24,828 nucleotides of DNA from a virus. The notes beneath the pieces are model-generated. The model was not told where the DNA came from, made no database searches, and saw only the letters and a list, made by a program, of their open reading frames with translations. Each line of letters opens with the position of its first letter. Position 1 is the first letter of the stretch. Shown here piece after piece: positions 1 to 19,500 of this stretch. The DNA lies in the IMG/VR virus record IMGVR_UViG_3300010354_000608, positions 1-24,828 of that record; one strand, given 5' to 3'. Position numbers and translations under genes: made by a program.

Positions 1-3000
1 CAGACTATCATACTGCAATATTCAATAATGGTGCTCAACTAGATAACTCTCAGAAGAGATTTGGAACTACTTCAGCATTTGTTGATGGAACAAACCAATA
101 CATTTCTCTTGCTGCATCTAGTGAGTTTGGATTTGGTACAAATTCATTCACAGTTGAGACCTGGATTAGATTGACAGATCTGGTTGGAACTCAACAAGTA
201 TTTGATTTCAGAACTGGATCAGTTAGTGATCTTGCTCCTACTGTCTATGTTTCTAATGGTGGTCAAATTAGATTCTACGCAAATGGATCTGATAGAATTC
301 TTGGGTCTACTCTAAATTCTGGAGTATGGTATCATGTTGCTCTATGTAGAGCAGGTGGATTTACCAGACTTTATGTCAATGGAACTAGAGTAGGATCAAC
401 GTATACTGATAGCAACAACTATGGTTCATCCAAGACTCTGACAATTGGTGCAGGATATGATGGTGGAAATCCATTTGGGGGACACTTTGATGAATTTAGA
501 GTGTCAAATATTAGCCTTTATACTGCAGATACTATTACAGTTCAAACTGGTATTTACCAGGGAGATTCTAATACAAAGTTACTACTTCATTTTGATGGAG
601 AAGATGGTGCAACAGAATGTATTGATTGGTCTGGTGCCGCTACTTGGAATGAGGACGATGAGTTTGTAAATACTGGAATTCTATTCCGTTATTATGATGC
701 TGCAAATGAGATAGAAAATAATCTAGATCTAATTTGTGCAGAGGCAGTTTATCAAACCGATAGAAACTTCCCACGTCTACACATTCCAACTACACTTGCT
801 TCAAATCGTGGGGCAGATTCATACAATTTGCTCCTAGCAAACCTAGAGTTTATTGCTAATGAGGCATATGACCGCATTGCTCCAACTCCTCCTAGTGGCA
901 CAACCAGAACTGATTGTACAGATGATGTTCAGGATGTTATCCGCAACATTGCTTACAACCTGAAGTATGGTTCAAACTCTAAGACTTGGGATGCTGCAGA
1001 ACAGTATGTTACTGGAAATGTTCTACAACACCTAGTTGGCAATGAGCAGGATTCGGTAGATGTATTCAATGAAGCGAGAGACATTGCTAAAGAAATTATC
1101 AACAACACTACAGTAACTGTAAGTGGATCGCATGGACTAACACAGTCTAAAGATACCTCTATCACTTACGTGTTTGGTGGATGTACAGACATTGAAGATG
1201 CTATCGATGACTTGATGGCAATCGTTACCGATACCATTCAAGATCCAGATGGTTCTGATGCAGTTACTTACCCATCATCTATTTCTCAAGTAACTAGAAC
1301 TCATCCACAGCATACTCGTTGCATCACAGATCTAAAAATTACAATTACTGAGATCCTCAAAGATATCAGAAATGGAGCAAACTCATATACCTGGGATGCT
1401 GCAGCATTCTATGTAAACAGAAGTGTTTCCCCAGTAACACTAAACCATGTTGTTGGTGAAGAAGCAGAAACCTCATGGGCATATGACAAAGCAAGAGATC
1501 TTGCTATTCAGGCAATGAGGGGAGAAACCATTACGATCACTGGTGATCATGGATATGTTCAGGAGATTGATAATTCTATTATTATTGATCCTGCTGGGGC
1601 ACCATACTGTGCAGATGTAGCATCGACAATTGATAATCTATTCGATATCGTAATCAATACACTCGATGAAGCTTATACTAATCAAATTGATTATCTCGGA
1701 ACCGTAACTAGAACTATTGCTCCATACGAATTTGCTACTGCTAAAGTGTATGCATTTAGATCTGATGATCTACTTGTCACAGATGTTGACGCCACAAATA
1801 AAAAATTCTGGACTAGTGAAATTTATGACCCTACTTATTATAGATTCCTAGATGCTGCTGGATTGATTTCAGTAAATGCAGAGGCAATCATCGATGAAAC
1901 TTCAGGACGACTACTTGCTAGATATCCAGTTCTTCTTACCGAAATGCCAGGAAATGAAGATGGTACTAGCAGTGGAACTAATAGATGTAAAACTGATCTT
2001 TCTCTAATACTTTCTGCCCTCATCAAAGATTTGACTTATGGTGGAAACAGATATACTACAGAGGCAGCAAAGTTCTATCTAGGTGCTAATGATGAAGTTA
2101 GATTCATTCGTTTGCAGTTGTGGGGATCCCTATATGCACACGAACAACTTGCAGAAATGTGTAAGTTGGCTATTACTGGTGATTTGAAAGCATCTGCTCA
2201 ATATACTGATGCTGTAATCGTTTCTGATGTTGGGATTACAAATGATCCAGGTGGATGTGCAAACGTCAAGACTGCAATTGATAATCTCATTCAAAGCATG
2301 AATGATATCATTGCTCCAGCAATTGATAGGTATAGAGATGCTGCGGATCTAATTGTATTCAATAGAGACTATATTGCAGAAGAAGCAATTGGATTGCTAG
2401 AAGATGAATTCTATTACACTCTGAGCAATAATCAAACATACCGATCATATGAATATCCAGGTGGAGATATCGATGGTCGTAATACATGCATTAGAGATGC
2501 TAAGTACATTATTGATGCCATTGCTTCAGATCTGTTGACTGGTGGTAATAATAGCATTCTACGCGCAGCAGAATATTATCTTGACTCTCAATTGAATATT
2601 GATTATGTTGAAGATCAACTATCAGCAACTCTATATGCTTGGGATAGAATTGGATTCCTATGCAAGAAAGCAATTGGAAATCTATTACAATCATCCAATC
2701 AAATTCAGTTGACTAGCGACCACTATGTTGCTCAATTCACAGACGAAACTGCATATTCGGATACGACCATTACTCATGATATTTCTACCCCAGGTGGAAA
2801 TTACAGTGCTCTAGACTGTGCCGATGTTCAGTCAAGTATTGATAACCTAGTCACCGCAGCTATCGATACACTTGCACCATCTGGAGATCTGGGACTTTCT
2901 GCATCTAGAATTTTGCTATTCAATAAAAATTACTATGATAAAGAAATCACTCAAGAAATCACCTTGCAGTGGGGATCGATTACAACTGAACAAAGATCAT

Positions 3001-6000
3001 TTATTGAAGAAGTAGCAGATAATATTATTCACGATTTGATTATCACAAAGGAAACTGTTCTTGATAATCAGATCACATCTGATTATGCCAATGCACAAAC
3101 ATATAATACTCTGAGAAATCTTCTAACAACTGTTGATACTGAAAATCAAAATCTGAACCTAATTCCAAACAATCAAACTGAAAATCTCACAATTTCTCCA
3201 TGGACTACCAATGCTGCAAATACAGTAACATCTGATGTTGGTACAGCGCCAGATGGAACCATAACAGCAGACAAATTCATCCCTGGTACAACTGGAACTG
3301 CTGATAGAGCAGTCTATAGAGATTATGTACTAACTGCATATACAACATACGATAGAGATAATGTAACACTTGATGTAGATACAATCACCTTTGATGAAGG
3401 TGTTGATGCATCTTATCAGAAATATACGTGGTCAATTTTCTTCAAAGATGCTGGTTATAATAATGCCCGTATCAGAGTTCAATGGGATGCTACCCATTAT
3501 GCATTCTTCAATATTTCTCTAGTAAATGGAACTCCAGGATCACTATTCTATAGTGGAATTACTGGAGTTACCAATGGAGTTATTCCACAGGGCAATGGAT
3601 GGTATAGAGCATACATCAGTTTCGATGTTCCTTTTGGTATCACATCAGTTAGACTGATGGCATATGGCACATCGACTTCTTCCCCAACTGCAATTGGAAA
3701 TGGAACCAGTGGCGTATTGATGTGGGGCGCTAAATTTGCAAAGGATAATATTGATATTTACGAATCTCAAGATGGAGCATTCTTCTATCCAGATAATGAA
3801 TATAACGTAAAAACCTATATCATTGATAGATTGGAATACTTCATGAATAGGGCAGCAAGTGGCACACTAACTACTCCATCTCCCCTAATTACATTCCCAT
3901 CATATACCAATGCATCTCTACAATCCAATTATACTTCGGCAGATATCACTTCATTTATATCTACTGTACTGGATCAGTATAGAAATCAACTTCTAGATCC
4001 TGCATACTTTATTCAGGCTGGTCTCCAAACGGGCATCGAGTTGTTGACTAAGACATATGGAACTAGATCAATTCCAGTACCTCTTGGTGGTCAAATTGAA
4101 CAATCATCTTTTGCATATGGAACCTCTTCGGATAACTCAGTTGAAATTTCTGGATATATTGAAAATAGTGCCGAAGTTGCCAAGAGTTATGTTAGGTTGA
4201 CAGTAACGGATGTTACTGATGGACCATTCGTAGTAAACGATACTACATCTAAGCAAGGAACTCCAGGAACAACTGGAGTATTGTATGCATTCTTCAGTGA
4301 TGAAAACTTCACTTATTTGGATATGGAAATTACTGCAGGAACTTGGGCAGTATCTGACGTTGTTACAAGTGCAGGTGGAGCATATGCAACAATTGTCGAT
4401 ATTGAATCGAGACTTCAAGTAATTGGTCTTACTGGAGATTTTGAAGATGGTAAGCAGTTCAGAGCATATACTAGTGATACTACAGCAGAGGTTGTTGATT
4501 TTATTAGATCTGAAGCTGCTGTAACTAGCAATCTTGGTGGAAAACTCACTGTCGATACTGAATCTTTGATTGGACCATTTGAAACAACTTCAGTCGTATA
4601 CCCACAAACATCCAGAATCTACTTGGATCTGATTCAATATTCTGGTATTGGATTGAATGTTGGAGATATTGTCGTTGCTGGTGGATACATTCGTTATGGG
4701 GTAACTGTAAGTTCCACATTGAATACCTTTACTAAGGGTGGAACTCTATATGGAGTTATCAACGGTAGTAAAGATCCAAATAAGAGAGCAATTATCGTTG
4801 ATATTGATCTTGATAATGGATTTATTTACGCACAACCATATCTCGGAACCTTTATAAATGGACAATCATTTGGTTATTATGGTCCAGCGGACGGTGATGT
4901 TCCAGTTGGATTTGCAACAATTCAAACAAGTACCACAATCGCTGGAAATGCTGCTGGAAGAATTGTAGATATCAAGACAGTTGGTACTCAAACTCGTGTA
5001 TTCCTAGCAGAACTTAGGGGAACTTGGACTGATAGACAAACTGTAATTGGTAGAGGTGGATATGGTGCTATTGTATATGTTACATCAGAATTGAAGGGAA
5101 GAATCAAACGTGCTTTCCGTGGATTTGATGGTGTACAGACAGAGTTCAAACTTACAACTGCAAATGGCACTCCATACTTCCCAGATCCAGAAGGACATCT
5201 ACTAGTCTTCATCAATGGTATTCTGCAACCACCTGGGGCATCGAATGCATACACCGCATTCTCAGATACTATTGCATTTAGTGAACCACCCGAAGTTGGA
5301 GCAGCATTTGTAGGATTCTATCTCGGAAAACTACGTCAATTGGATGACATTTCGTTTGAATTTGATTCACTACGTCAGTCATTCAACCTACGTCGTAGTG
5401 GTACATTCTACTCACTAACTCTTACCGATGGTGTACAATCTTCCGTCGTTAGACCAGAGAATAACATCATTGTTTCCCTCAATGGTGTTATCCAAGAACC
5501 TGGTATTGGATTCACTCTCGTTGGTTCTAGAATCATCTTCAGTGAAATTCCTCGTGTTGGATCAACGTTTGTTGCGTTCTCTTATGTTGGATCTGAAGCT
5601 GACGTTGATGCTGAAATTGTCGTTCCTCCAGTTGAGCCAGGTGATCTTCTCACAATTGAAGGTGAAACTGTAGATCGTGAAGTTGCTGTTATTGAGTCTT
5701 CAAACTCACTTATCACAATTGATTATCTTGGATCTGTATTTGGTAAGGATGCTTCTGCAACCGCTACAATCACAAGGGGTAGAATCAGAGAAGCCAGAGT
5801 AACTTCTGGTGGTTCTGGATATACTTCTCGCCCACTAGTCAGAATTGACTCCGTTACTGGTTTTGATGCAAATATCAAAGCTCTTGTCGGTGTACAAAGA
5901 ATTGAAATGGTCAATGGTGGATCTGGGTACAAATCCCCAACTGTTGTTGTGGAAACCACAGTTCCAGATGATTGGACTCCCCCAAATCTATCTCTATATG

Positions 6001-6266
6001 GAGAAGATGGTGTTGTAAATCTAATCGATGCCTACAGCATTCCTCAGCAAGAACTTCCTCCTGAGAGTGGAGTTGTAGATGATAGTAATACAACTAGTGG
6101 TGGAACAACTGGTGGAGGTGGATCTGTAGGTCAAACCACTGGATCTACCGATTCCAGCGGAACTGTATATGATGGAGAACTTGGATCTGTCTGGACTCGC
6201 CCATCCCAAGCATACACAGTTCCAAACTTCGATATTACTACCATATTTGTTTCCAGTACAACCTAA
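1..6266 (+). CDS. Giant phage structural/adhesin protein with LamG-like N-terminal part (5' end outside window)
   Basis: The reading frame is open from base 3 to the TAA at 6264-6266, giving about 2087 visible residues. The first possible start (TTG at 171) lies inside a domain, so the true start is upstream of the window. Visible residues 1-190 resemble a LamG/concanavalin-like lectin fold (motifs FTVETWIR, WYHVALCR, LYVNGTRVGS, HFDEFRVS). Residues about 220-960 hold four alpha-helical repeats with conserved Cys, listed separately. Residues about 1066-1263 look like a jelly-roll module of phage fibres (YTWSIFFKDAG, GNGWYRAYISF). Two phage-fibre beta modules follow at about 1733-1776 and 1821-1863 (FINGILQPPG, SLNGVIQEPG), then two GSGY beta units and a Gly/Ser/Thr-rich linker at about 2022-2056. 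I infer a virion surface protein that binds host glycans; lectin plus jelly-roll suits adsorption. It lies first in a late block ahead of baseplate genes. The domain assignments are by eye; the exact virion position is unknown. Confidence 0.85.
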   Translation, partial: DYHTAIFNNGAQLDNSQKRFGTTSAFVDGTNQYISLAASSEFGFGTNSFTVETWIRLTDLVGTQQVFDFRTGSVSDLAPTVYVSNGGQIRFYANGSDRILGSTLNSGVWYHVALCRAGGFTRLYVNGTRVGSTYTDSNNYGSSKTLTIGAGYDGGNPFGGHFDEFRVSNISLYTADTITVQTGIYQGDSNTKLLLHFDGEDGATECIDWSGAATWNEDDEFVNTGILFRYYDAANEIENNLDLICAEAVYQTDRNFPRLHIPTTLASNRGADSYNLLLANLEFIANEAYDRIAPTPPSGTTRTDCTDDVQDVIRNIAYNLKYGSNSKTWDAAEQYVTGNVLQHLVGNEQDSVDVFNEARDIAKEIINNTTVTVSGSHGLTQSKDTSITYVFGGCTDIEDAIDDLMAIVTDTIQDPDGSDAVTYPSSISQVTRTHPQHTRCITDLKITITEILKDIRNGANSYTWDAAAFYVNRSVSPVTLNHVVGEEAETSWAYDKARDLAIQAMRGETITITGDHGYVQEIDNSIIIDPAGAPYCADVASTIDNLFDIVINTLDEAYTNQIDYLGTVTRTIAPYEFATAKVYAFRSDDLLVTDVDATNKKFWTSEIYDPTYYRFLDAAGLISVNAEAIIDETSGRLLARYPVLLTEMPGNEDGTSSGTNRCKTDLSLILSALIKDLTYGGNRYTTEAAKFYLGANDEVRFIRLQLWGSLYAHEQLAEMCKLAITGDLKASAQYTDAVIVSDVGITNDPGGCANVKTAIDNLIQSMNDIIAPAIDRYRDAADLIVFNRDYIAEEAIGLLEDEFYYTLSNNQTYRSYEYPGGDIDGRNTCIRDAKYIIDAIASDLLTGGNNSILRAAEYYLDSQLNIDYVEDQLSATLYAWDRIGFLCKKAIGNLLQSSNQIQLTSDHYVAQFTDETAYSDTTITHDISTPGGNYSALDCADVQSSIDNLVTAAIDTLAPSGDLGLSASRILLFNKNYYDKEITQEITLQWGSITTEQRSFIEEVADNIIHDLIITKETVLDNQITSDYANAQTYNTLRNLLTTVDTENQNLNLIPNNQTENLTISPWTTNAANTVTSDVGTAPDGTITADKFIPGTTGTADRAVYRDYVLTAYTTYDRDNVTLDVDTITFDEGVDASYQKYTWSIFFKDAGYNNARIRVQWDATHYAFFNISLVNGTPGSLFYSGITGVTNGVIPQGNGWYRAYISFDVPFGITSVRLMAYGTSTSSPTAIGNGTSGVLMWGAKFAKDNIDIYESQDGAFFYPDNEYNVKTYIIDRLEYFMNRAASGTLTTPSPLITFPSYTNASLQSNYTSADITSFISTVLDQYRNQLLDPAYFIQAGLQTGIELLTKTYGTRSIPVPLGGQIEQSSFAYGTSSDNSVEISGYIENSAEVAKSYVRLTVTDVTDGPFVVNDTTSKQGTPGTTGVLYAFFSDENFTYLDMEITAGTWAVSDVVTSAGGAYATIVDIESRLQVIGLTGDFEDGKQFRAYTSDTTAEVVDFIRSEAAVTSNLGGKLTVDTESLIGPFETTSVVYPQTSRIYLDLIQYSGIGLNVGDIVVAGGYIRYGVTVSSTLNTFTKGGTLYGVINGSKDPNKRAIIVDIDLDNGFIYAQPYLGTFINGQSFGYYGPADGDVPVGFATIQTSTTIAGNAAGRIVDIKTVGTQTRVFLAELRGTWTDRQTVIGRGGYGAIVYVTSELKGRIKRAFRGFDGVQTEFKLTTANGTPYFPDPEGHLLVFINGILQPPGASNAYTAFSDTIAFSEPPEVGAAFVGFYLGKLRQLDDISFEFDSLRQSFNLRRSGTFYSLTLTDGVQSSVVRPENNIIVSLNGVIQEPGIGFTLVGSRIIFSEIPRVGSTFVAFSYVGSEADVDAEIVVPPVEPGDLLTIEGETVDREVAVIESSNSLITIDYLGSVFGKDASATATITRGRIREARVTSGGSGYTSRPLVRIDSVTGFDANIKALVGVQRIEMVNGGSGYKSPTVVVETTVPDDWTPPNLSLYGEDGVVNLIDAYSIPQQELPPESGVVDDSNTTSGGTTGGGGSVGQTTGSTDSSGTVYDGELGSVWTRPSQAYTVPNFDITTIFVSSTT
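660..2880 (+). repeat. Four degenerate alpha-helical, Cys-containing repeat modules inside the giant protein
   Basis: Each module carries a Cys-x-x-D helix followed by DL/N-x-x-G-G/S/A-N and an A-A-x-x-Y segment. The first-half cysteines are encoded at 915, 1320, 1986 and 2487 (CTDDVQDVI, CITDLKITI, CKTDLSLIL, CIRDAKYII). The second half carries a matching Cys-x-D/N-V/I helix near 1182, 1608, 2256 and 2817 (CTDIEDAIDD, CADVASTIDN, CANVKTAIDN, CADVQSSIDN). Unit spacing is irregular (405, 666 and 501 bases), and a short DAA-x-LI-x-x-N segment precedes the later copies. The DNA copies are well diverged, so these are old protein repeats and not recent duplications. The function is unknown; a helical spacer or stalk is plausible. 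Confidence 0.7.
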
Positions 6267-6289: not shown

Positions 6290-7168
6290 ATGGCAATATC
6301 AAGTACAACCGCATCACTGCATTCCAATGGCAATATAGAAATTATTACCAATGGATTGCCAGATCCAGCACTCTATGGGGATCCTCTTGGTTCTGGGTTA
6401 TTTCCAGACAATCCAAATACAATCACACCACATACACAGACATTTGAGTTTTTCTATAGAGGTGGGGAAGCAAAAGATCTTCCAAATCCCCAGCAAACTA
6501 CTCTAGGACCCCAGGGAATCGCTCTCAATGGAGTTGTATTATTCAACCCATCTGCCGCCCCAGGACCACTACCAGGGACGACTACACAACCTCCTGTAGG
6601 GTTCTCATACAATGCTGTGTACAATGAAGATGCCTATGGTGTTGATGCATGTGGTGGGCATCCAGAAGAAGATGGTAATTATCACTATCACTCTGCAGCA
6701 TTCTTAGTAAACTGTTGGGGTTCTAAAGTTATATCTTCAAACAGTTATTTTTCATCATCATCTTACAATGGAGATTATTTCAGACATCCTGATGGTCACT
6801 CCAAAATTGTAGGAATTTGTTTTGATGGATATCCGATTTATGGTCCATTTGGATATACAAATCCAAACGATCAACTTAGTGAACCGATACGAATGCGTAG
6901 TTCTTATAGAGCATATCCATCTCCAAGAGTGGGCAGAGGAAGTACATATGCTCAGATACCACCTGGCGTTTATGTACAGGATTTTGAATATGTTGAAAAT
7001 CTTGGTACATTAGATGAATTCAATGGTAGATATAGTGTTACTCCAGATTATCCATCTGGAACATATGCATATTATCTGACTGTGGATTCCGAAAATAGAC
7101 CAGTATATCCATACATCTTTGGAAATTCCACTAGAAAACCAAGAGCTTCTTTTGAGCACGCTCACTAA
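6290..7168 (+). CDS. YHYH-domain phage structural protein
   Basis: This 292-residue protein is essentially one YHYH domain (Pfam family of that name). The signature is Y131-H132-Y133-H134 within EEDGNYHYHS. It is followed by RHPDGHSK (165-172), DGYPIYGP (179-186), the block LGTLDEFNGR and the terminal TYAYYLTVD...PVYPY. All family landmarks are present and in order, so the gene looks intact. No signal peptide or membrane segment is evident. The biochemical role of YHYH domains is not established; the His-rich signature suggests metal binding, which is inference. The start is ATG 6290, with GAGGA 11 bases before it. It sits 23 bases after the giant adhesin gene and is paralogous to part of the protein at 8433-11969, which has lost the YHYH histidines. 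The position in a baseplate/fibre block suggests a virion component. Confidence 0.85.
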   Translation: MAISSTTASLHSNGNIEIITNGLPDPALYGDPLGSGLFPDNPNTITPHTQTFEFFYRGGEAKDLPNPQQTTLGPQGIALNGVVLFNPSAAPGPLPGTTTQPPVGFSYNAVYNEDAYGVDACGGHPEEDGNYHYHSAAFLVNCWGSKVISSNSYFSSSSYNGDYFRHPDGHSKIVGICFDGYPIYGPFGYTNPNDQLSEPIRMRSSYRAYPSPRVGRGSTYAQIPPGVYVQDFEYVENLGTLDEFNGRYSVTPDYPSGTYAYYLTVDSENRPVYPYIFGNSTRKPRASFEHAH

Positions 7169-7196: not shown

Positions 7197-8423
7197 ATGG
7201 CAAAACAATCACTAAATATTGGTTCTGTGCCAAATGACGGTACTGGAGATTCTTTGAGATCTGGTGCGTCGAAGTTGAACAGCAATTTCACAGAACTGTA
7301 TGGGGCAGTAGGAAATGGAAATAACCTGACAGTTAGTGTTGCTAACGCACAGCAGGGACAAGTTCTTAGATGGAATGGTAGTACCTTTGTGCCCCAGGAT
7401 TATGGATCTCTAACATCAACATTGGATGTCAATAACTACAGTATTGTCAGCAGCAACAACGGGCATATTGTTCTTGACCCAAATGGAACTGGTGATGTAA
7501 ATTTGGTATATGGTGGACAAACTGCAAACTTTGATGGAGTAAGCGGTAGAGCACTAATTAGTGGTCCAATTGCATATGATAATGAATTTGATACTATTGG
7601 AGCAGCACCATCAAATAGCACTTATAAAGGATATTTCTTCACAGTAAACGGCAATAACAGTCCAAAAGTAAACATGTCGGTGACTGGTGTTGGCGATTCT
7701 ACGGTAGATCTTGTAACAAAACTCGATAGTGTCAATGTTCTAGCGGATGTGGACACTGCAACAAATGCACCATCAAATAATCAGGTTCTAAAATGGAGTG
7801 CTGCTCAAGCAAAGTGGATTCCTGGTGATGATGCAGCTGGCGCTTCAACTCAAAATATCTTCCAAACAGTTGTTGCCGATACTGGTTCTACTACAGCAAA
7901 TAGTCCAACAGATACATTGACCATCTCTGGAGGCACTAACTGTACTACTGTTGTTAGTGGAGATACAGTAACAGTCAATGTAGATGGAAATTTCGAACTG
8001 GAAGAACTCACTGATGTAAATCTAACTAGTGTTGCTAGAGGAGAATCTCTAACTTATGATACTCAGGGAAATGGTGCAACAGCGGCATGGATCAACCAGC
8101 CATCTCCAACACTTTGGTATATTTTCTCAGTTGGATTGAATAATAACTCATATCTAGTTGAAGGTCCTGGGCAGACACAAACTGATGATGCTGATCTCCA
8201 TCTTTATCGAGGATTTACTTACATCTTTGTCAATAATGCTGGATCAAACCACCCACTAAGAATTCAATCTACAACTGGATTGGCTGGTTCTGAGTGGACA
8301 TTGGGAGTAACTGGAGATAAAGCAGGCAGACAGTATTTTACGGTTCCTCATAGCGCACCAAATACTTTATATTATCAATGCACAATCCATGTCAATATGT
8401 CTGGAATCCTGTACATCAAATAA
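7197..8423 (+). CDS. Baseplate/fibre protein with T4 gp10-like N-terminus and C-terminal cupredoxin-like domain
   Basis: This is a 408-residue protein. Residues 3-45 (LNIGSVPNDGTGDSLR, KLNSNFTELYGAVGNG) match the N-terminal pattern of T4 baseplate wedge gp10, which has NIG-x-x-x-DDGTGD-x-LR-x-G-x-KIN-x-NF-x-ELY. The middle carries three fibre units of the form L/V-x-x-V...Q-V-L-x-W: GQVLRWNGSTFVPQD, NQVLKWSAAQAKWIPGDD and a weaker third. Residues about 325-408 form a cupredoxin-like domain: FTYIFVNNA, H352 in SNHPLRI, then C395-x2-H398-x2-M401 in YYQCTIHVNMSG. The 43-residue His-to-Cys distance is close to that of plastocyanin, so a type-1-like copper site is possible but unproven. A CATAAATA promoter motif precedes it. 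T4 gp10 is about 600 residues and has no such domain, so this is a partial homologue and not a full orthologue; no gene symbol is given. Confidence 0.8.
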   Translation: MAKQSLNIGSVPNDGTGDSLRSGASKLNSNFTELYGAVGNGNNLTVSVANAQQGQVLRWNGSTFVPQDYGSLTSTLDVNNYSIVSSNNGHIVLDPNGTGDVNLVYGGQTANFDGVSGRALISGPIAYDNEFDTIGAAPSNSTYKGYFFTVNGNNSPKVNMSVTGVGDSTVDLVTKLDSVNVLADVDTATNAPSNNQVLKWSAAQAKWIPGDDAAGASTQNIFQTVVADTGSTTANSPTDTLTISGGTNCTTVVSGDTVTVNVDGNFELEELTDVNLTSVARGESLTYDTQGNGATAAWINQPSPTLWYIFSVGLNNNSYLVEGPGQTQTDDADLHLYRGFTYIFVNNAGSNHPLRIQSTTGLAGSEWTLGVTGDKAGRQYFTVPHSAPNTLYYQCTIHVNMSGILYIK

Positions 8424-8432
8424 TAAGATAAT

Positions 8433-11400
8433 ATGGCAAGAGTAATTCCTGGATCTGGTGCAGTAATCAAACCAAATTTCAATGATGAATTTGGTATTGC
8501 TTCTGTAGATGTACTTTCTGGTGGTTCTGGATACACAAATTCAGATCCACCAAGATTGACAGTCGATAATTGCGGAACACCTGAAGTAGAAGCAGTATTA
8601 TATCCATATATCGATGAAGATTCTGGAAAAATCGTATATGTAAGAGTACTTGAACCTGGTAAGGGATATGATCCACTAAGGGTTTCGATTATACCTAAAC
8701 AGGATTCTATTACAGTAATAGATTCCTTTGATGCTAATAGAATTTGGACTTCTTCGAATACATCAGTAACTAGTGGTAGATTTATCGAGTATGATAGACT
8801 TCGAGTAACTACAAATGGGATACCAGATCCAGCTCCATATAACAAAGGAAATGTATTTGCTACTCCATATAATCATACTTTCATTTATAGAGGCGGTAAA
8901 GATGTTCCCAAGTATTCTGCAAGGATCGTATATAATGACGCTCCAAGAGGAATTACCTCAAATGGAGTAGAACTTCATACACCAGATTTTTACAATCTTT
9001 TGCCAGGAGTTCCAATCCCTGAAGCTGGATTCACTTATGATATTGTAAAGACTCCCGATCTTTTAGACTTGGATCAATATGGAGGAACTACCAGTGAAGA
9101 TGGAAATCTGTTAGGAAAATATTTTTACACGTCAGCAAACCTTCTTCAGGCATATAACGCATCTGGGAGTGTTTATAGTATTGCTCCATATTATAAAGGC
9201 AGTAACTATCAGGGAGATAGAGGAAGACATCCAGATGGTCACTCAAAAATTATTGGATACTCTTATGATGGTTATCCTATCTATGGTCCATACGGGTATT
9301 CAGATCCAAATATCAGTTCAAACGTTATCATTTTAGAATCATCATATAGGTTGAAGACTACTGATGAAACTGAAGTACTAAGACCCAAAGTAGTAACTCC
9401 GTCAACTACAACATATACAGTCACTGTTGCTCCTGCACAAACCACTGGAACTGGAAATCGTTACTACATTACTGGTGGTGGATTCACTAATGCAGAGAAG
9501 CAGTTTCTAAATCTTGAGAGGGGAAGCACTTATGTTTTCAATCAAGATGATACTACAAATACTACTCATGCTATTTTGTTTTCTCCATATGGATCTAGTA
9601 CTGCACAGGGATGGCATAGTCCTGGGATCATTGCTGGAGATAGAACAGCGTTATGGGAAAAGGGTGTAACGTATTACCTAGAAAATTCTCAAGTAACATA
9701 TGAGACTTATGTTGAAAATTTCAATGCAGCAACTCTAAGAAGGGTTGAATTTGAAGTACCTATTGATGCTCCAGATATTCTGTATTATTTCTGTTACAAT
9801 CATTCGAACATGGCAGAACGTTTGGTTATCGATGGATATCCAAATGGTACATTTGTTCAGGATAATATCTATGAGGAAGGACTTGGAGATCTCGATGAAT
9901 TCAATGGTAGATTTTGCAAAACACCAGAGTATCCAAATGGAACATACGCATATTTTCTTACCGTAGACTCTAATTCAGATCCAGTATATCCATATAGTAT
10001 TGGACCTAAATTTTATGGAAAGGAATATTTGCCTGGACCTAATGGAGAACAATTACCAGAACCGTCTTTAGATTCTCCAAAGGGAGCGTATGCAATTCCA
10101 GAAGTTGATGAAACCACGGGAGAAATTACTTACATCAACGTTAGATCCAGTGGAGATGGATATTTCGGAGAAGCAAACGTTAGTATTTTTGGCGGAGAAG
10201 GATCTGGAGCCCAAGCAACAGCAGTTACTAAAACAGTTACTGGTTTGGCACTTATCTCTGAGGGTGTGAACTATGCTACTGCACCAAATATTTTCTTTCA
10301 AGGAGGAGGTGGATCTGGTGCTAAGGGAGTTGCTTATATTGATCCAGCTGGTAAAGTTACAAGCATCCAAATAAACAATCCTGGACAATACTATAGTCAA
10401 TCCCCATACATCATTATTGATGGTGGTGGTGGTCTTGGAGCAAAAGCACGAGCAATAGTAAGTCAGGGTCAAATTCAAAGTATAGAGATTACTAATCCTG
10501 GAAGTGGATATACTTCATCACCACAGGTTATTTTTACAAAGTTAGCGACACTAAAGAGAACAGTAAGAAATCGCCAATCATTCAATTCTGTCGATTTTCA
10601 ACTCTGCGGTCTCACTTCACCAGTTGATGTCAACCAAACTTCAATTTATGTCGATAGTACAGATTCTTTCCCTGGATCTGGAACTTTATTGATTGGTAAT
10701 GAAGTAGTAAGATATACATCAAAGTCCAAACAAAGATTTACTGGTCTCTCTAGAGCACTCAATTTTAGATTTGATCAGAGAATTATTTTAGATACGGATC
10801 AGGATGATCCAGATACAGGTGTCTCAACTTATGAATTCAAAGTTGGTGATAGGGTAATTAGACGTGTTGAAAATTCTTCCAACAAAATTGCAATTGTTTA
10901 TGATTGGAAACCAGAGAGTAGGGAATTATTCGTAAAATTTGAAGTTGATGATTTGGCATTTATTGATGCTGGCATTCCATCTTCAGAAGAAAGAGTAATT
11001 TCATTTGATGGTGGCATTGCAGAGTCGTCATTTACAGCACAATTGCCACATCTAACGGAAAGTAATGACGGAAGTTTTATCAAACTATTTGTTGGTGATC
11101 CAGTGTATCTCTCGAAAGTTACACCTCAAATAGTTTTGACTAATACTCGTTATGTTGATGCTGATGACAATGGGTTACCAGATGTTATCAATGCTGGAAC
11201 TGGATTTGAAAATCAAATTTCTCTCGATGGGGGAGTTTATAACTCTCTATATGGTATTGAAGAAACAGTTGGTGGAACGAATACAACTCTATTCCAAGTT
11301 GGTGATGGTATTACTGACTCTAGTTTGCCATCAAAGATTGCTACAGTTGATATCGCTGGAGCACTTGGTGATGGAGTTGAGCATGATGCAGATGTAATTC

Positions 11401-11969
11401 TAACATTGGATTCCAGATATTCGAATAGCGTTTCATACTTCCCTGGTGAAATCATCACTGGGGAGCAAAGTGGAATACAAGCTGAAGTAGTTGAGTGGAA
11501 TCCAACTACACGAAAACTCCATCTAACTAACATTGTTCCTTATGATACTGGCGATGTGAATCTTGGAATAAATGGTAAATACTATAGATTCTCCAAGAAA
11601 TCTACTATTATTGAAATTCGTGTAGTTGACGCTGGTGTAAACTACACCGCTGCACCAACTCTTGATATAGAAACAGTAGCAGATGGTATAAGTGCTACTG
11701 CTACTGCAGTGATGACATCATCTGGAGATCAAATTGATTATGTTGATGTAACTGTAGAGGGATATGGATATGAACAATATGTTGACGAGATTACGAATAT
11801 TCTACATCCAACAATTACTATAACAAACGATATTTCAGATACTACTGGTGCTAATGCTTCCGTTGAAGCAATAGTTGGTGGAGAATATATTGTTGGAAAC
11901 AATGGAGGACGTTGGAGAGTGAAGGAAATCGAATATCTAACCCTAGTTAGAAACGAGTTTTCTACATAG
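8433..11969 (+). CDS. Large structural protein: degenerate YHYH domain interrupted by a cupredoxin-like insertion, then GSGY beta repeats
   Basis: This is a 1178-residue protein. The N-terminal GSGY-type beta units (LSGGSGYTNS) lead into a YHYH-type domain at about 100-540 that parallels the gene at 6290. RGRHPDGHSKIIGYSYDGYPIYGPYGY is shared as the same landmarks, but the signature position reads Y230-F-Y-T233, so both histidines are gone. Between the segment after DGYPIYGP and the closing block LGDLDEFNGR lies an insert of about 120 residues with cupredoxin features: GSTYVFNQDD, H379, and C454-x2-H457-x2-M460 in YYFCYNHSNM. Residues about 567-700 form GSGY/GGGGSGA beta repeats, followed by a SGA beta unit (FPGEIITGEQSG) near 1007 and two more GSGY units. 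The gene starts 9 bases after its neighbour with only a weak ribosome-binding site, so translational coupling is likely. It is probably a virion baseplate or fibre component. Confidence 0.8.
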   Translation: MARVIPGSGAVIKPNFNDEFGIASVDVLSGGSGYTNSDPPRLTVDNCGTPEVEAVLYPYIDEDSGKIVYVRVLEPGKGYDPLRVSIIPKQDSITVIDSFDANRIWTSSNTSVTSGRFIEYDRLRVTTNGIPDPAPYNKGNVFATPYNHTFIYRGGKDVPKYSARIVYNDAPRGITSNGVELHTPDFYNLLPGVPIPEAGFTYDIVKTPDLLDLDQYGGTTSEDGNLLGKYFYTSANLLQAYNASGSVYSIAPYYKGSNYQGDRGRHPDGHSKIIGYSYDGYPIYGPYGYSDPNISSNVIILESSYRLKTTDETEVLRPKVVTPSTTTYTVTVAPAQTTGTGNRYYITGGGFTNAEKQFLNLERGSTYVFNQDDTTNTTHAILFSPYGSSTAQGWHSPGIIAGDRTALWEKGVTYYLENSQVTYETYVENFNAATLRRVEFEVPIDAPDILYYFCYNHSNMAERLVIDGYPNGTFVQDNIYEEGLGDLDEFNGRFCKTPEYPNGTYAYFLTVDSNSDPVYPYSIGPKFYGKEYLPGPNGEQLPEPSLDSPKGAYAIPEVDETTGEITYINVRSSGDGYFGEANVSIFGGEGSGAQATAVTKTVTGLALISEGVNYATAPNIFFQGGGGSGAKGVAYIDPAGKVTSIQINNPGQYYSQSPYIIIDGGGGLGAKARAIVSQGQIQSIEITNPGSGYTSSPQVIFTKLATLKRTVRNRQSFNSVDFQLCGLTSPVDVNQTSIYVDSTDSFPGSGTLLIGNEVVRYTSKSKQRFTGLSRALNFRFDQRIILDTDQDDPDTGVSTYEFKVGDRVIRRVENSSNKIAIVYDWKPESRELFVKFEVDDLAFIDAGIPSSEERVISFDGGIAESSFTAQLPHLTESNDGSFIKLFVGDPVYLSKVTPQIVLTNTRYVDADDNGLPDVINAGTGFENQISLDGGVYNSLYGIEETVGGTNTTLFQVGDGITDSSLPSKIATVDIAGALGDGVEHDADVILTLDSRYSNSVSYFPGEIITGEQSGIQAEVVEWNPTTRKLHLTNIVPYDTGDVNLGINGKYYRFSKKSTIIEIRVVDAGVNYTAAPTLDIETVADGISATATAVMTSSGDQIDYVDVTVEGYGYEQYVDEITNILHPTITITNDISDTTGANASVEAIVGGEYIVGNNGGRWRVKEIEYLTLVRNEFST
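10131..10539 (+). repeat. Tandem GSGY / GGGGSGA beta-repeat array in the large YHYH-cupredoxin protein
   Basis: Four consecutive units of about 38 residues share a pattern of short strand, G-x-x-Y, P-x-I/V-x-I/F, then a glycine run with SGA. Examples are SSGDGYFGEA with GGEGSGAQA, SEGVNYATAP with GGGGSGAKG, NPGQYYSQSP with GGGGLGAKA, and NPGSGYTSSP. The DNA copies differ, so the repeat is maintained at protein level. Related single units occur in the giant protein at 5800-5960, in gp8 at 12660-12820 and elsewhere in this same protein. Confidence 0.7.
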
Positions 11970-12004: not shown

Positions 12005-13537
12005 ATGGCAGCCCTACTTACAGATCAATTCAGGATCTTCTCTGCGAAGAAGTTCATCAAATCTCTTGAGGGACCAGTTGCGACGCAATCAGATGCGGAT
12101 GCTGGTTCTAGTAGGGATCGTCTATATGTGTTTATTGGAAGACCGCAAGAATGGGATAATGAGAATTCTCCCCCACAGGCAATCGATTCGTTTGACCAAT
12201 TTTCGGATTCTTATGATGATATGATTTCTCTGAAGAGAATTCTAGCATCAGATACGATTCAAGTTATTCGAAGAATTGATTGGACACCTCCAGAGCAAAC
12301 AACAGGTGGTCTCGGATACACATATGACATGTATCGTCATGACTATTCGCCAACCAGTACTGCAGCTTCTGGTGCTACAAAACTATATGATGCGGATTAC
12401 TATGTTGTAAACTCAAACTATCAAGTTTATAAGTGCATCTACAATGGTACGTCGCCATCGGACCCCAACGGAAAACCCTCAACTATCGAACCAACTGGTA
12501 CTTCTACTTCTATTATCACCACTGCTGATGGTTATCGTTGGAAGTATATGTACACCATCCCAGTGGCACAGGTTCTGAAGTTCTTCTCGAACGACTACAT
12601 GCCAGTATTTTCTAGTTCTGCTGTTATTACAAACGCAGTTGCTGGTGAAATTGATACGGTTGTAATTACTTCTTCAGGTTCTGGTTATAACAATGGAACT
12701 TATGACAACATTGCTATTGCTGGGGATGGAGTTGGTGGAAGAATTTCAGTAGTTATTGATGGTGGTAAAATCATTGCTGCTACGGTAACTTCTGGTGGAA
12801 CTGGATATACATTCGCAAAAATTAGCGTAGATGCTATTCCTGGTATTGGAACTGGTTCTGCAGGTCAAATTGACATTATCATTCCTCCACCAGGGGGACA
12901 TGGATTTGATCCAGTTATGGAATTGGGTGCCTACCGTGTCATGGTAAACGCAAAGCTATCATATGATGAAGGTGCTGGAGATTTTCCAGTAGATAATGAT
13001 TACAGAAGAGTTGGTCTTCTGGTAAATCCACAAAAGTATGGAACTACCGAACTTCTTTCCGATCTAACAGTTTCTGCAACTAGAGCAGTCATTTTTCCAC
13101 AAACATTCCAAGGTAATTTCCTACCAGATGAAATTATCACCCAAACTCGTGTTGTGTCTGGTGGATCCGTCACTTCTCGCGCTAGGGTAATTTCGTGGAA
13201 TCCAACCACTAAGGTTTTGAAATACTACCAGAATAGAATTGATGGCATTTATCCAGAAATTATTGGATCGTTGAATGAATTTGATGGATCCAATCCAATT
13301 CAGGGTATATCATCTGGTTCTTCATCTGAACCAGATATTACATTCCCAAGTGTACCAAATACATCTACCCGTGTCATCAATGGTACTGAATATGACTTGG
13401 GCATGAGATTCACATCTGGATATGCAAAACCAGAAGTTTCCTTCAACACTGGCGAGATTATTTACCTAGATAATAGAAGATCAATTAGTCGTGCCAGCGA
13501 CCAGATTGAAGACATCAAAATCGTAATCGAGTTCTAA
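12005..13537 (+). CDS. 8: Baseplate wedge subunit gp8 (T4-like), enlarged by beta modules
   Basis: This is a 510-residue protein; T4 gp8 has 334. The N-terminal third matches gp8 in order: F-R-x-F/x-x-x-K-F-I near the start, LYVFIGRPQEWDNE, ISLKRILASDTIQVIRRIDW, VYKCIYNG, TIEPTGT and DGYRWKYMYTIP. The C-terminus matches again with FNTGEIIYLDNRRSISRASD and QIEDIKIVIEF, and the core segment YRRVGLLVNPQKYG is also recognisable. Extra length comes from a GSGY beta insert at about 215-300 (SSGSGYNNG, SGGTGYTFA) and a SGA-type unit at about 375-420 (FLPDEIITQ, ARVISWNPTTKVLKYY). In T4, gp8 forms part of the baseplate wedge with gp10, gp7, gp6, gp53 and gp25. The start ATG 12005 follows a perfect TATAAATA; a GAGG lies 14 bases upstream of the ATG. 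The downstream giant gene begins 4 bases after the stop. Confidence 0.9.
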   Translation: MAALLTDQFRIFSAKKFIKSLEGPVATQSDADAGSSRDRLYVFIGRPQEWDNENSPPQAIDSFDQFSDSYDDMISLKRILASDTIQVIRRIDWTPPEQTTGGLGYTYDMYRHDYSPTSTAASGATKLYDADYYVVNSNYQVYKCIYNGTSPSDPNGKPSTIEPTGTSTSIITTADGYRWKYMYTIPVAQVLKFFSNDYMPVFSSSAVITNAVAGEIDTVVITSSGSGYNNGTYDNIAIAGDGVGGRISVVIDGGKIIAATVTSGGTGYTFAKISVDAIPGIGTGSAGQIDIIIPPPGGHGFDPVMELGAYRVMVNAKLSYDEGAGDFPVDNDYRRVGLLVNPQKYGTTELLSDLTVSATRAVIFPQTFQGNFLPDEIITQTRVVSGGSVTSRARVISWNPTTKVLKYYQNRIDGIYPEIIGSLNEFDGSNPIQGISSGSSSEPDITFPSVPNTSTRVINGTEYDLGMRFTSGYAKPEVSFNTGEIIYLDNRRSISRASDQIEDIKIVIEF

Positions 13538-13541
13538 AGAG

Positions 13542-16500
13542 ATGCCACAGAATACTAACCTCAACGTCACGCCATATTACGACGACTTTGATAAGAAAAA
13601 GAACTTCTATAAGGTTCTTTTTAGACCTGGATTCCCCATTCAGGCACGGGAACTTACAACGTCACAAAGTATTTTACAGAATCAAATTGAATCTGTAGGT
13701 ACTCACTTGTTCAAAGAGGGTGCTATGGTCATCCCTGGACAAGTTGGATATGATTCAAATATTGATTGTATTTTACTTCAGGCAAGTTTTCTTGGTGCAA
13801 ACGTAGAACTCTATAGAGAGCAGTTGACTGGCAGAATTATCACTGGTCTCAATAATGGCGTAAAAGCAAAGGTATTGTATTCTATCCCCGCTAAAGAATC
13901 TGAGCGTGGATATATTACTTTATATCTGAAGTATGTGCAAAATGGTGGAGTCGAATCTACCACCAGAACATTTGAAAATAATGAACAGATCTCTGCAGAT
14001 GCAGATATTACTTTTGGAACTACTCTGATTGAATCTGGATCTCCATTCGCACAACTACTTCCATCTTCATCACTATCCGTTGGATCTTCTGCATATATTG
14101 CAGAAGGAGTATATTTTATTCGTGGTCATTTTGTTGATGTAAGTGCTCAATATATTCTTCTAGATCAGTATGGAAATAACCCAACTTATAGGGTTGGTCT
14201 AGCTGTCACAGAATCGATCGTAACTTCTGAAGACGATGATTCTCTAAATGATAATGCTGCTGGTAGTTCAAACTATTCTGCTCCTGGGGCACATCGCTTC
14301 AAAATCTCCACAAAACTAGTCAAAAAAACTATTGATGATGAGTCAGATAAAAACTTCATTGAACTACTTCGTCTCAATAATTCAAAAATTCAGAAGTTTG
14401 TAACAAGAACTGCGCTCAATGAACTGGAGAAGTCTTTAGCACTAAGAACTTTCCAGACAAATGGCAACTACGTAATTAGAAATTATTCAATCGTCGTTAG
14501 GGATCAGCTAAACGATGATGCAAAATCTGGAATCAATGGAGTATATCAATCTGGATCTATTACTAAGAGTGGTCTTGTAGCAAGTGATGATTACTATACT
14601 GCAGAGATTAGTCCTGGTGTTGCATATGTAAATGGTTACCAGATTGAAACAATTACAACACAATTTATCGATTTTCCCAAACCAAGAGATACCAAGGCTC
14701 TACAAAATCAAATTGTCCCATTTGCAGTTGGAAACTCACTCACAGTCGAAAATATTTTCGGTTTTCCAAACTTCACTGGATCTTCTTCAGTTACTAACTC
14801 TTATCAAGTCTTAGAAATTAGAGATCAACGAACAGATCCAGATGGTGTAACTGGAATGTTTGATGACCCTCAAGGAAATGTCATTGGATATGCAAGAGCT
14901 CTTACTATGGAGCACGTTTCCAATGGTCCAAATGGTACATATGGAGATTCTGACGATATCTATCAAATGAATATCTTTGATATTCAAATGTTTGGCATTC
15001 TCAGACTTTCAGCAGCTACTACAATTTCTCAGGGATCTCAGATTGTTGGTGGAACTTCTGGAGCAAGATGCTTCATTGTTGATACCCAAACATCAGCAAC
15101 CCACATAAAAGTTTACCAACAGGAAGGAACATTCTCGGTCGGAGAAACTATTTTCGTTGATGGTATTGCTAAGGGAGTTATTACACACGTACATAGATAC
15201 GAGTTTTCTGAGTCACGTTCTTTAGTGTCAAGAGATGAATCCACATCTCAAGTTGAATTCACATCAAATATCATTCTTGACGACTATCTAACAATTGATG
15301 GTGATACATTCACATATGATAGTGGTGCTGGAACTCTGACTGGATTCAACTCAAATTATGCAAAAGATTTGAGACCTGGGGATATTCTATATTTCAGTGG
15401 TGTTGATTATCTGGTGGTAGAAGATGTAGATCCGACTGCTTTGAACACGCAAGGCATTTCAACAATTTTTGATTACGCGAATCAAGTAGTCAGTGTAAAT
15501 TCTGGTAGTGGAACTGTAGTTGATGGTGTATATTCCACCATCGTTAGAGGAAGATCTCAACTTCTAGGAAGAGAAAATAATGATCTTTTCAGTGCTATGC
15601 CGAAGAAATACGTCAAGAGTATTTCTGACGAGTCTATGATCGTTAGACGAACATACGATTCTCTAACAGTTCCTGCTGGTTCGGTTACCATTGATCTTGG
15701 TGGAAATGAGCAGTTTTCTGCCATTGAAAATGAAAACTACAATCTAACTGTCCTAGCATCTAGTAATCCAAGTTATCCAGTAGGAAGTCAAATTGAACTA
15801 CTAACGAATTCAGCAGACTCTGCAGAAGTGGGATATGCAACATTTACATCACTAGATAGAACGACTCTGAATATTGACAATCTAACAAATATTACGTCTG
15901 TAAAGTTGACAGCAACCCTTTCTAAGAATGTTGTCAATAAGAAATTGAAGACACTTTCAAAGATGTTTGTTCTGAAAGTGAATAGAACGCTATCAGATAA
16001 AGATACTCAAAGATATGGATTGACATATTCAAATCTATACGGTACTAGAATTGAAGATCCAGAGATTTCTCTTGGGGTATCCGATGCGTTCCAATTGAAT
16101 GCTGTTTATGAATCATTGAATGATGATGATCCTGTTATCCCATCACTAACCATCGCAGAATCTGCATTCTTTGCTGCAGGAACCTTCATTACTGGTAAAA
16201 CTTCTGGAGCAAAAGGAAAAGTAGTACAGTTTTCGACAACAAATCTCACAGTAAATTACATTGGTGTTTCTGGTACGTTTATACCAGGCGAACAGATTAG
16301 CGGATTCAATTCATCTGGAGAAATTATTAGTGCCCTCATCAACGATGATGCTGCTGCAATTGTCTCTGGGTCTAAAGTTGTAACTGATGATTATTACATC
16401 GAACTAAATCAGACTGGATTCTTCTACAACACATCTAAATTAGTTCGTAAACCAGGAAGAAGACCAGCGGTAAGAAAACTACTTGTAGTATATGATTGGT

Positions 16501-19500
16501 TGGCACATCAATCTACAGGAGATTATTTTGCGGGTCAGTCCTATACAGGCATTTCTTATTATGACATTCCATTCTTCAATCAGGCATTGTGTCTAACTGA
16601 CTTCCTTGATTTCAGACCATCTGCTAAAAACCTCTATAGTGGTACTGGAACTGCATCATCACCAGCATATGTTGCCTGCTCTACTCTCGATTTCAAATCC
16701 AGACTATTTACTTCTGGGTCTACTGTAATTGATATTCCAAAATTAGATAGTGACTTCCGTTGTGACTTTGATTTCTATCTACCAAGAGTTGATAAACTGT
16801 TTGTGTCTTCTGAGGGAGGATTCCAAGTAATCTCTGGAAAATCTGCAGAGGTTCCAGAGCCACCAGAAGATATACAGAATGCAATGCTTCTGGCAACAAT
16901 CAGAATGAGACCATATGGATTTGATCCAGAGAAGGATGTTGTTATTACTAAGGAAGATAATCGTCGCTATACGATGAGAGATATTGGTAGTCTCGATCGT
17001 CGTTTGAGCAATGTTGAGTACTACACTTCACTATCACTACTAGAAAGTGATACCGCAAATACAAAAATTGTTGATGCTACTGGTAAAGATCGTTTGAAAA
17101 ATGGATTTATTGTCGATGATTTTGCATCTCACGATAAATCTGATACGTCTAATTCTGATTATAAAGTGTCGCTGGATTATGCACAGGGTCATTGTAGACC
17201 AGCACACTACACAACTAATGTCAGTCTAGAGTGGAATCAATCGGCATCCACAAATATTCAACAGACAGGTCCACTGCTTACTCTTCCATATGAAGAGGAA
17301 ATGATCGTAAATCAACCATATGCATCTAGAGTTGTAAACGTAAACCCATTCAACGTCTTTACATATATTGGTCGTATTGATCTAACTCCATCTACTGATG
17401 ACTGGATCGATACCAAGAGGGAGCCAGCAAAGATTACCCAGATTGAGGGTAACTATGAGGCAACCAGAAAAGAAATGAACGTTGATCAAAATGGATTTGC
17501 CCCAATTCAATGGAATGCATGGCAGACTTCATGGGTTGGCGAAAAAGTAACTTCTACAAAAACTGTTTATCAACCAGATTGGGTTGCTTCTGACGTTGGC
17601 AAATCTCCTGCTCCATGGGTTTGGGGTGGAAAGGGTCTACGTAGAATCAATGAAGTAGATACGATTGAAGTAACAACTGGTTTGACTCGTACTGGAACTA
17701 GAAGCAAGGTAGTTCCAAAAATTGAAAACCAATCTCTTGGAGATTCTCTACTATCCAGTACAGTTGTTCCTTGGATTCGTTCCAGAAACGTACAACTATA
17801 TGCTGCTCGTCTAAAACCAAGAACTCGTTTCTATGCATTCTTTGATAATGTAGCATTTACAAATTATATGATTCCAAAGGTCATTGAACTTGTAAAAGAT
17901 AGTGCTTTAGATTCTAGAAGCAATGCAACGCCATTTGTAATTGGTGAAACCGTAGTTGGGCAAACATCTGGATGTAAACTAATTGTTGCTGCTCCTAATG
18001 ATGGATTTGAATTCAATCCATATGATGACACAGAGATGCCAGAGTCATATGCTTCGGCAACATCATTCTTGAATATTGATACGGAAAAAATGGCAAAGCA
18101 AGTTGCTGGTGATTCCTATGGCAATATACAAGTTGGTGAAGTTCTAATTGGTTCCTCTGGTGCAAAGGCAGTCGTAAAAGATCGTCGCTTAGTTTCCGAC
18201 AGATCTGGTAATTTGAAATCTGCTATGTGGATTCCAGATCCAAATGTAGACACAAACCCACGTTGGGGAACTGGAAAGAGAAATATCCGCCTAACAACAT
18301 CAGATACTGATAGTCGTCTTGCTGGTGCTGTTGCATCTTCTGCAGAAACGTGGTATTTGGCAACTGGTATTCTCAATACTGTTCAAGAAAATATTCTTGC
18401 AGTAAGAAATGCAGATATTGTTATTGACACAGTAACTGAAGAAACGATCGAACTATCTACAAGAGAGGAAACTCGTCAAGTTGGTTGGTATGACCCTCTA
18501 GCACAGTCATTTATTATCGATAAACCAGGTGGATGCTTCCTGACAGGATTTGATGTATTCTTCTTCACAAAAGATAGTGCAATTCCAATTTCATGCCAGA
18601 TTCGTGCAATGGAAAACGGATATCCATCTAAGAGAATTCTTCCATTCAGTGACGTTACTCTAAATCCATCTGAAGTTCAGGTATCTGAAAATGGTTCTAT
18701 TGCGACCAGATTTACATTCCAGGCTCCAGTATACCTACTGCAATCCGTAGAATATTGTTTCGTACTTCTCTCAGACTCAAACGAATATCAAGTTTGGGTA
18801 TCAAGAATGGGCGATAATGATGTTACAGATAATAGAACTATTTCTGAACAACCATATGCAGGTGTACTGTTCAAATCACAAAACGCTTCTACTTGGACTG
18901 CAGATCAATACGAAGATTTGAAATTCACTGCATATCTCGCTAAGTTCAATATTGGTCTCCCATCGAAAGCAATTTTCAATAACACAGCTCTCGCTCTTGG
19001 CAATAGAGGAATTCTGAATCTACGTAATAATCCAGTAATTACCCAAAAACCAGATCAAAACCTAATTATGAGTTTGGCAAATGTTTCCTACACTATTGGG
19101 GCTACCATTAGATATATCTCTGGTGGAAATACTTATATTGGTAGTGGAACTGTAAAGGATAGTTATGAAGCAGCAACTGGAACGATTCTAGTGTTGACAG
19201 ATGTTGTTGGATCTTTCCCACAAACATCAAGAGTAACTTCTTCTAGAACCGAGGCATCAATCGTTGTAAGTGGAGAGAGCACTGATTTTACAGTAGGAAA
19301 CGTCATCAAAAATGCATCACTATCTACAGCAGAAATTACTGCATGGAACAGTGGGACAAATACCCTAACTGTAAATTATGTTTCTGCATCATCTGGTGGA
19401 GTAGTATTCCAAGCAAATGATACTATCACTGAATACTCAGCAATTGAATCAACGAGTGCAATTCAAACAGCAACGATTGATAGCCTGACATACTCTGGAG

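Follow-up and report, generated by a model that had tools for sequence, protein, structure and literature searches.

A cupredoxin-like barrel nested in a loop of the YHYH domain of a T4-like cyanophage baseplate protein

The baseplate protein that we call p3 carries a cupredoxin-like domain inside a loop of its YHYH domain, and this nested layout is the usual one among PHROG 708 proteins rather than peculiar to the phage from which our sequence derives. The explanation that we favor, and which we hold to be rather probable as a whole, is that p3 would be a structural protein at the edge of the cyanophage baseplate, in which a YHYH domain serves as a scaffold; sequence, distribution and model show that one loop of this domain displays a cupredoxin barrel, which has a putative copper site. 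To our knowledge, little of the cyanophage baseplate has been characterized, in contrast to that of T4.

The window, i.e., the whole stretch of DNA that was analyzed, is a 24.8-kb virus fragment carrying a T4-like cyanophage baseplate operon with the following features.

171-6266: long fibre/lectin ORF of 2031 aa, whose N-terminal domain is concanavalin/laminin-G-like (Pfam E 4.2e-16); structural protein of PHROG 18802/701
6290..7168, + strand: p1, a free-standing YHYH protein without insert and with intact YHYH motif (PF14240, E 5.6e-38; loop of 56 aa)
7197..8423, + strand: p2, a gp9-like baseplate wedge / tail-fibre connector (PHROG 677, T4_gp9_10_N)
8094..8420, + strand: terminal, non-nested cupredoxin-like domain of p2 (H352, C395, H398, M401)
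8433..11969, + strand: p3, 1178 aa, 'baseplate wedge subunit' (PHROG 708), between gp9 (p2) and gp8
8799..9350, + strand: first part of the p3 YHYH domain, residues 123-306 (BLASTP to p1, Pfam PF14240, alignment), with RHPDGHSK at 9225-9248 and DGYPIYGP at 9267-9290
9387..9842, + strand: nested cupredoxin domain of p3, residues ~319-470 (model, VIA-align, Foldseek)
9567..9569, + strand: H379, putative first histidine ligand (alignments)
9792..9812, + strand: C454-x2-H457-x2-M460, putative remaining type-1 copper ligands, with amicyanin-like spacing
9840..10004, + strand: last part of the p3 YHYH domain, residues 470-524 (BLASTP to p1; PF14240 stretch 469-514), with LDEFNGR at 9891-9911
10053..11969, + strand: C-terminal part of p3, residues 541-1178, the insert-free marker for the family tree
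12005-13537: gp8
13542-20837: large ORF at the VrlC position, by synteny with S-ShM2

Further downstream, the ORF at 21381-23087 of the window encodes an Mtd_N domain, as found at the N-terminus of the major tropism determinant (Pfam E 4.9e-15).

The assignment of p3 is supported by a full-length profile match to PHROG 708 (1543 bits), a family of the category 'tail', and by the gene order gp9 - p3 - gp8, which recurs in annotated relatives and places p3 in the baseplate synteny of PHROG 708. The nearest isolates are the Ahtivirus phages S-SSM2, S-ShM2 and S-RIM14, and p3 is 62% identical to its S-SSM2 counterpart over the full length; no DNA-level match to the window was present in the phage collection searched. 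The PHROG 708 / T4-GC 399 proteins of the Kyanoviridae S-SSM2, S-ShM2, S-SSM4, syn9 and S-SM1 are orthologous to p3 over its full length, and these phages share with the window both the order gp9 - p3 - gp8 - VrlC and the nested cupredoxin. Virion proteomes have been published for S-SM1, syn9 and S-PM2 (PMC3037559).

The interruption of the YHYH domain is evident from a comparison of p1 and p3. A sequence-only reading of this DNA had described collinear landmarks in the two proteins, and all three occur in the same order (RHPDGHSK at residues 165/265, DGYPIYGP at 179/279 and LDEFNGR at 241/487 of p1/p3). BLASTP aligns the proteins in two collinear pieces, residues 16-207 of p1 with 123-306 of p3 (43% identity, E 8e-28) and 224-278 with 470-524 (65% identity, E 5e-19). 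The loop between DGYPIYG and DEFNGR comprises 202 aa in p3 and 56 aa in p1; the extra residues reported before LDEFNGR are thus present, though they number 146 rather than ~120, and the insert, placed earlier at 9460-9830, lies in that region with slightly wider limits (9387-9842). The residues H379, C454, H457 and M460 are located exactly as that reading had given them. Against PF14240, p3 scores 79.3 bits in two stretches, with a cut-off of 25, and it shares with this family the conserved RHxxGHSK and DGYPIYG, but its domain is interrupted by the barrel, and most histidines of the YHYH motif are missing from it. The insert itself is recognized by pairwise BLAST to the C-terminal domain of p2 and by profiles of PHROG 708 (3e-41) and of PHROG 677, i.e., gp9 (2.9e-8). 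Together with homologues in 303 phage records and the modelled barrel, these matches show that the similarity is beyond chance.

Structure prediction of residues 95-546, for which the AlphaFold input was a 36-row alignment of the window and viral-contig sequences, yielded a model with a pLDDT of 83.9 and a pTM of 0.81, in which a separate barrel sits within the YHYH loop. The insert (residues ~224-376 of the model) is its best-modelled part, with a pLDDT of about 86-97 by blocks, and has the Greek-key beta barrel of the cupredoxin fold. All 50 of the VIA-align matches listed are cupredoxin-fold proteins, headed by the N-terminal domain of Hyphomicrobium nitrite reductase (2dv6; Z 9.8, rmsd 2.6, 106 residues) and including two-domain laccases (Z about 8.5) and rusticyanin (8.1). 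The top Foldseek matches, AcoP and rusticyanin, reach an E of only about 1e-3. In a viral structure library, the YHYH proteins of S-RIM14 and P-TIM40 cover most of the p3 model (TMq 0.52). This supports the view that the YHYH scaffold is continuous around the barrel, even though the model is less certain there than in the insert. The claim of a cupredoxin-like domain within a YHYH loop is therefore borne out by the collinear YHYH halves, the confident model and the structural matches. In sequence searches against solved structures, p3 alone gave no match, and the best match of the cupredoxin alignment, pseudoazurin, is not significant on its own (E 0.085). No Pfam family covers the insert of the window, and one member of the alignment touches Copper-bind at E 0.18.

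The type-1 cupredoxins amicyanin, pseudoazurin, rusticyanin, AcoP and the Hyphomicrobium nitrite reductase N-terminal domain have in common with the p3 insert the predicted fold and the arrangement of a His followed by Cys-x2-His-x2-Met. However, their identity to it is about 15% or less, and the p3 insert is nested in a virion protein and its metal is only putative. H379, C454, H457 and M460 follow the canonical type-1 order His, Cys, His, Met, and a profile alignment matches the C-x2-H-x2-M of p3 to the corresponding ligand motifs in pseudoazurin and amicyanin, a coincidence that is not significant alone. The C-terminal domain of the gp9 connector (PHROG 677), encoded next door, is homologous to the insert and has the same ligand quartet, but it lies at the end of its protein instead of being nested, is shorter by about 40 residues and belongs to a separate clade. 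Among gp9 tails picked without using the ligand motif, the full quartet is found in 58/61 distinct sequences. One-insert orthologues of p3 likewise keep H-C-H-M in this loop, which we call loop 2, in all lineages but one; the exception (L067-L074) reads HCHK, the Met ligand being replaced by Lys (CHNHINK), and has no second insert.

With respect to the distribution of the nested layout, homologues of the insert occur in 303 phage records and orthologues of the C-terminal part of p3 in 290, such that the search of phage proteins proposed by the sequence-only reading finds the arrangement many times over. Free-standing, p1-type YHYH proteins of phages have loops of 56-59 residues and lack the insert. 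The same reading had named non-phage homologues that all contain the insert as evidence against nesting. YHYH is present in 34/296 sampled Bacteroidota genomes, and the loci read there have no insert, their loop being 56-70 residues where measurable and devoid of a C-x2-H-x2..4-M motif; these proteins otherwise carry BACON and Ig-like domains and secretion tails. In the sequences examined, only phages thus have the insertion, and the idea that the insert is an integral part of the YHYH fold is ruled out by its absence from p1-type and sampled Bacteroidota YHYH proteins. One scan of genome contigs yielded two YHYH loci, of which one (L119, on a 188-kb contig of Nonlabens xiamenensis, NZ_RMVE01000006.1) was rejected as a bacterial homologue: the contig is 98.9% identical to P-TIM40 over 8.6 kb, and thus represents phage DNA in a bacterial assembly.

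The window p3 belongs to a one-insert group, whereas most sampled members of PHROG 708 (e.g., syn9, S-SSM5, P-SSM4, S-RIM2 and S-RIM8) have two inserts, have lost the loop-2 ligands and lack the p1 gene. In these Kyanoviridae, an extra block is found in another YHYH loop (loop 1), before RHPDGHSK, and consists of a small beta domain, which weakly resembles part of the T4 baseplate protein 5iv5 chain BJ (Z 7.9, 77 residues), followed by a second region ending in C-x2-H-x2-M. This region looks cupredoxin-like from its motif pattern, the structural matches covering mainly the loop-2 barrel. All two-insert orthologues have lost the loop-2 ligands and carry C-x2-H-x2-M in loop 1, and the fold of their loop-2 barrel is still recognized (auracyanin A, Z 8.1). 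In the model of one such protein (L101), the YHYH scaffold has a pLDDT mostly under 60, and hence the inserts alone were used.

A tree built from the insert-free C-terminal region unites the two-insert proteins in one clade (support 100, starred), and the outgroups P-TIM40, S-SZBM1 and S-CREM1 have no YHYH part in their p3 homologue, which makes one insert the simpler ancestral state. This suggests a single gain of the second insert and a single loss of the older site. The relocation of the ligands further suggests that one metal site per protein is retained, although this is one evolutionary event and the coupling has an n of 1. A p1 gene stands beside every one-insert p3 examined and beside 0/34 two-insert p3; L050, an apparent exception, has a p1 with RHTDGHS. 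Since the two-insert phages still keep a ligand-free barrel, the barrel must have a role beyond metal, and the loop-1 barrels of giant baseplate proteins, which are often without ligands, likewise indicate that a barrel can persist without its site.

How the nested domain arose is a separate matter. The sequence-only reading had proposed that the YHYH gene was duplicated locally and that the domain was captured from the gene in between, and the adjacency of the three genes and the homology of their domains would be in line with p1 duplication and gp9 cupredoxin capture in the window lineage. However, the YHYH tree separates p1-type and bacterial domains from p3-type domains plus one giant-ORF domain (SH-aLRT 97, starred), with the p1 and p3 of the window each within its own ortholog group, and this deep split speaks against local duplication of p1 as the source of the p3 YHYH domain. 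Trees of cupredoxin domains contain many weak branches, and only starred branches and the AU test were relied on. Here, gp9 cupredoxins form one clade (100/99, starred) with the p3 insert placed elsewhere, and forcing the two cupredoxins of the window to be sisters is rejected (AU p = 0.0011), which discards p2 as a recent or immediate source; an ancient common source of the gp9 and p3 cupredoxins is possible. Given also that the nested layout is found across the whole PHROG 708 family, we regard duplication and capture in the window lineage as highly improbable.

Instead, YHYH loops seem to have received cupredoxins on several occasions, to judge from the different positions within the loops and from the several YHYH domains with barrels. 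The giant ORFs have a barrel with about 50% identity to that of the window, placed in the same loop but across the PxGxFxxDxxY strand from it, and another YHYH domain of these ORFs carries barrels of its own, one of them apparently split by a further complete barrel. This nested pair occurs in giant baseplate ORFs of ~3100 aa (L020, residues ~920-1430; also L015 and L077), where GHPFHLKT...CEFHGGM lies inside ...THPFWIQ...CENHAAM, and the inner and outer domains are sisters in the tree (98, starred).

What p3 does with its two domains can be approached from the residues that have been kept. YHYH domains have been predicted to be metal (Zn)-dependent hydrolases with a conserved triad of histidines and an aspartate (PMC7824862). 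Alignments of p3 show that the histidines of RHxxGHSK and the aspartate of DGY are invariant and that the GGH and YHYH histidines are mostly gone, so that p1 is a more plausible Zn hydrolase than p3, for which this function is doubtful. On these sequence grounds, the N-terminal YHYH domain of p3 would probably have lost catalysis and serve as a scaffold. For the barrel, the conserved ligands and the apparent move of the site between nested inserts in the sister clade lead us to infer putative copper binding, most likely through H379/C454/H457/M460 in a type-1-like site, which would be filled once the virion is in seawater. Its likeliest role would be that of a metal-stabilized surface module for attachment or for baseplate packing beside the gp9 connector with its related barrel, a tentative proposal that we rate at somewhat less than an even chance.

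Alternatively, the barrel could be purely structural, an Ig-like display or packing domain of cupredoxin ancestry whose ligands are functionless leftovers. Ig-like modules are frequent in baseplate and fibre proteins, and the ligand-free barrels kept by two-insert orthologues and giant proteins argue that the fold is useful without metal. Yet neutral leftovers would be expected to decay independently, whereas the quartet is complete in nearly all the gp9 tails counted above and, at 40-60% identity, in almost every one-insert p3, and the loop-1 insert carries ligands in all cases of loop-2 loss; we therefore think this explanation unlikely, though deserving of attention. Other metals can also bind His/Cys/His/Met sets, and a site for another metal (e.g., Zn), or one that stores or scavenges metal, would accommodate the lineage with Lys for Met, but most lineages still have Met as the fourth ligand, and the barrel folds like a copper protein, so that a site other than type-1 copper appears quite improbable.

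A redox use of the barrel is possible, though less likely than a surface module. The type-1-like ligand set and its amicyanin-like spacing would suit a module acting with the YHYH domain or, at injection, with photosynthetic or periplasmic electron carriers of the host, and cyanophages also carry plastocyanin genes, petE being listed (PMC3037559). Against such a partnership, which we judge improbable, neither p3 nor its neighbours show a partner or a second redox center, and most putative metal ligands of the p3 YHYH domain are gone.

If the copper site is real, the presence in a virion protein of a type-1 site that is conserved and has apparently been relocated would amount to an unexpected metal requirement for infection. 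T4-like cyanophages are among the most abundant viruses of the ocean. A broader idea, on which we lean to the doubtful side, is that a baseplate with built-in copper-binding barrels is a design shared generally by marine T4-like phages, with YHYH as the receiving scaffold for repeated cupredoxin insertion (in two loops, in more than one YHYH lineage, and as cupredoxin within cupredoxin) and with selection preserving one or more copper-competent barrels in each protein; on this idea, the virion would be a copper-carrying particle in which the metal matters for stability or host entry. A natural pair of states, with the site in loop 2 and loop 1, respectively, is offered by one-insert phages (e.g., S-SSM2 and S-SSM4) and two-insert phages (e.g., syn9). 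The p3 family also illustrates cleanly how domains can nest repeatedly at fixed loops of a single scaffold.

In the literature searched, the coverage of which is incomplete, we found no paper joining cupredoxins and phage tail fibres, and no mention of cupredoxin in that retrieved for 'YHYH domain'; a wider search on cupredoxins and bacteriophages returned, by title, nothing on phage structural proteins. The remark in the sequence-only reading that YHYH-cupredoxin nesting is undescribed agrees with this. The domain architecture is thus real, widespread and made of known parts, with an unusual pattern of ligand relocation, and apparently undescribed. Cupredoxin-like domains bearing the quartet also occur outside recognized YHYH domains, in virion or fibre-region proteins of the marine phages 023Pt_psg01, S-TIM66, P-SSM5 and P-TIM68 (L038, L039, L040 and L041), and weaker cupredoxin-like matches reach fibres of podoviruses and Pelagibacter phages.
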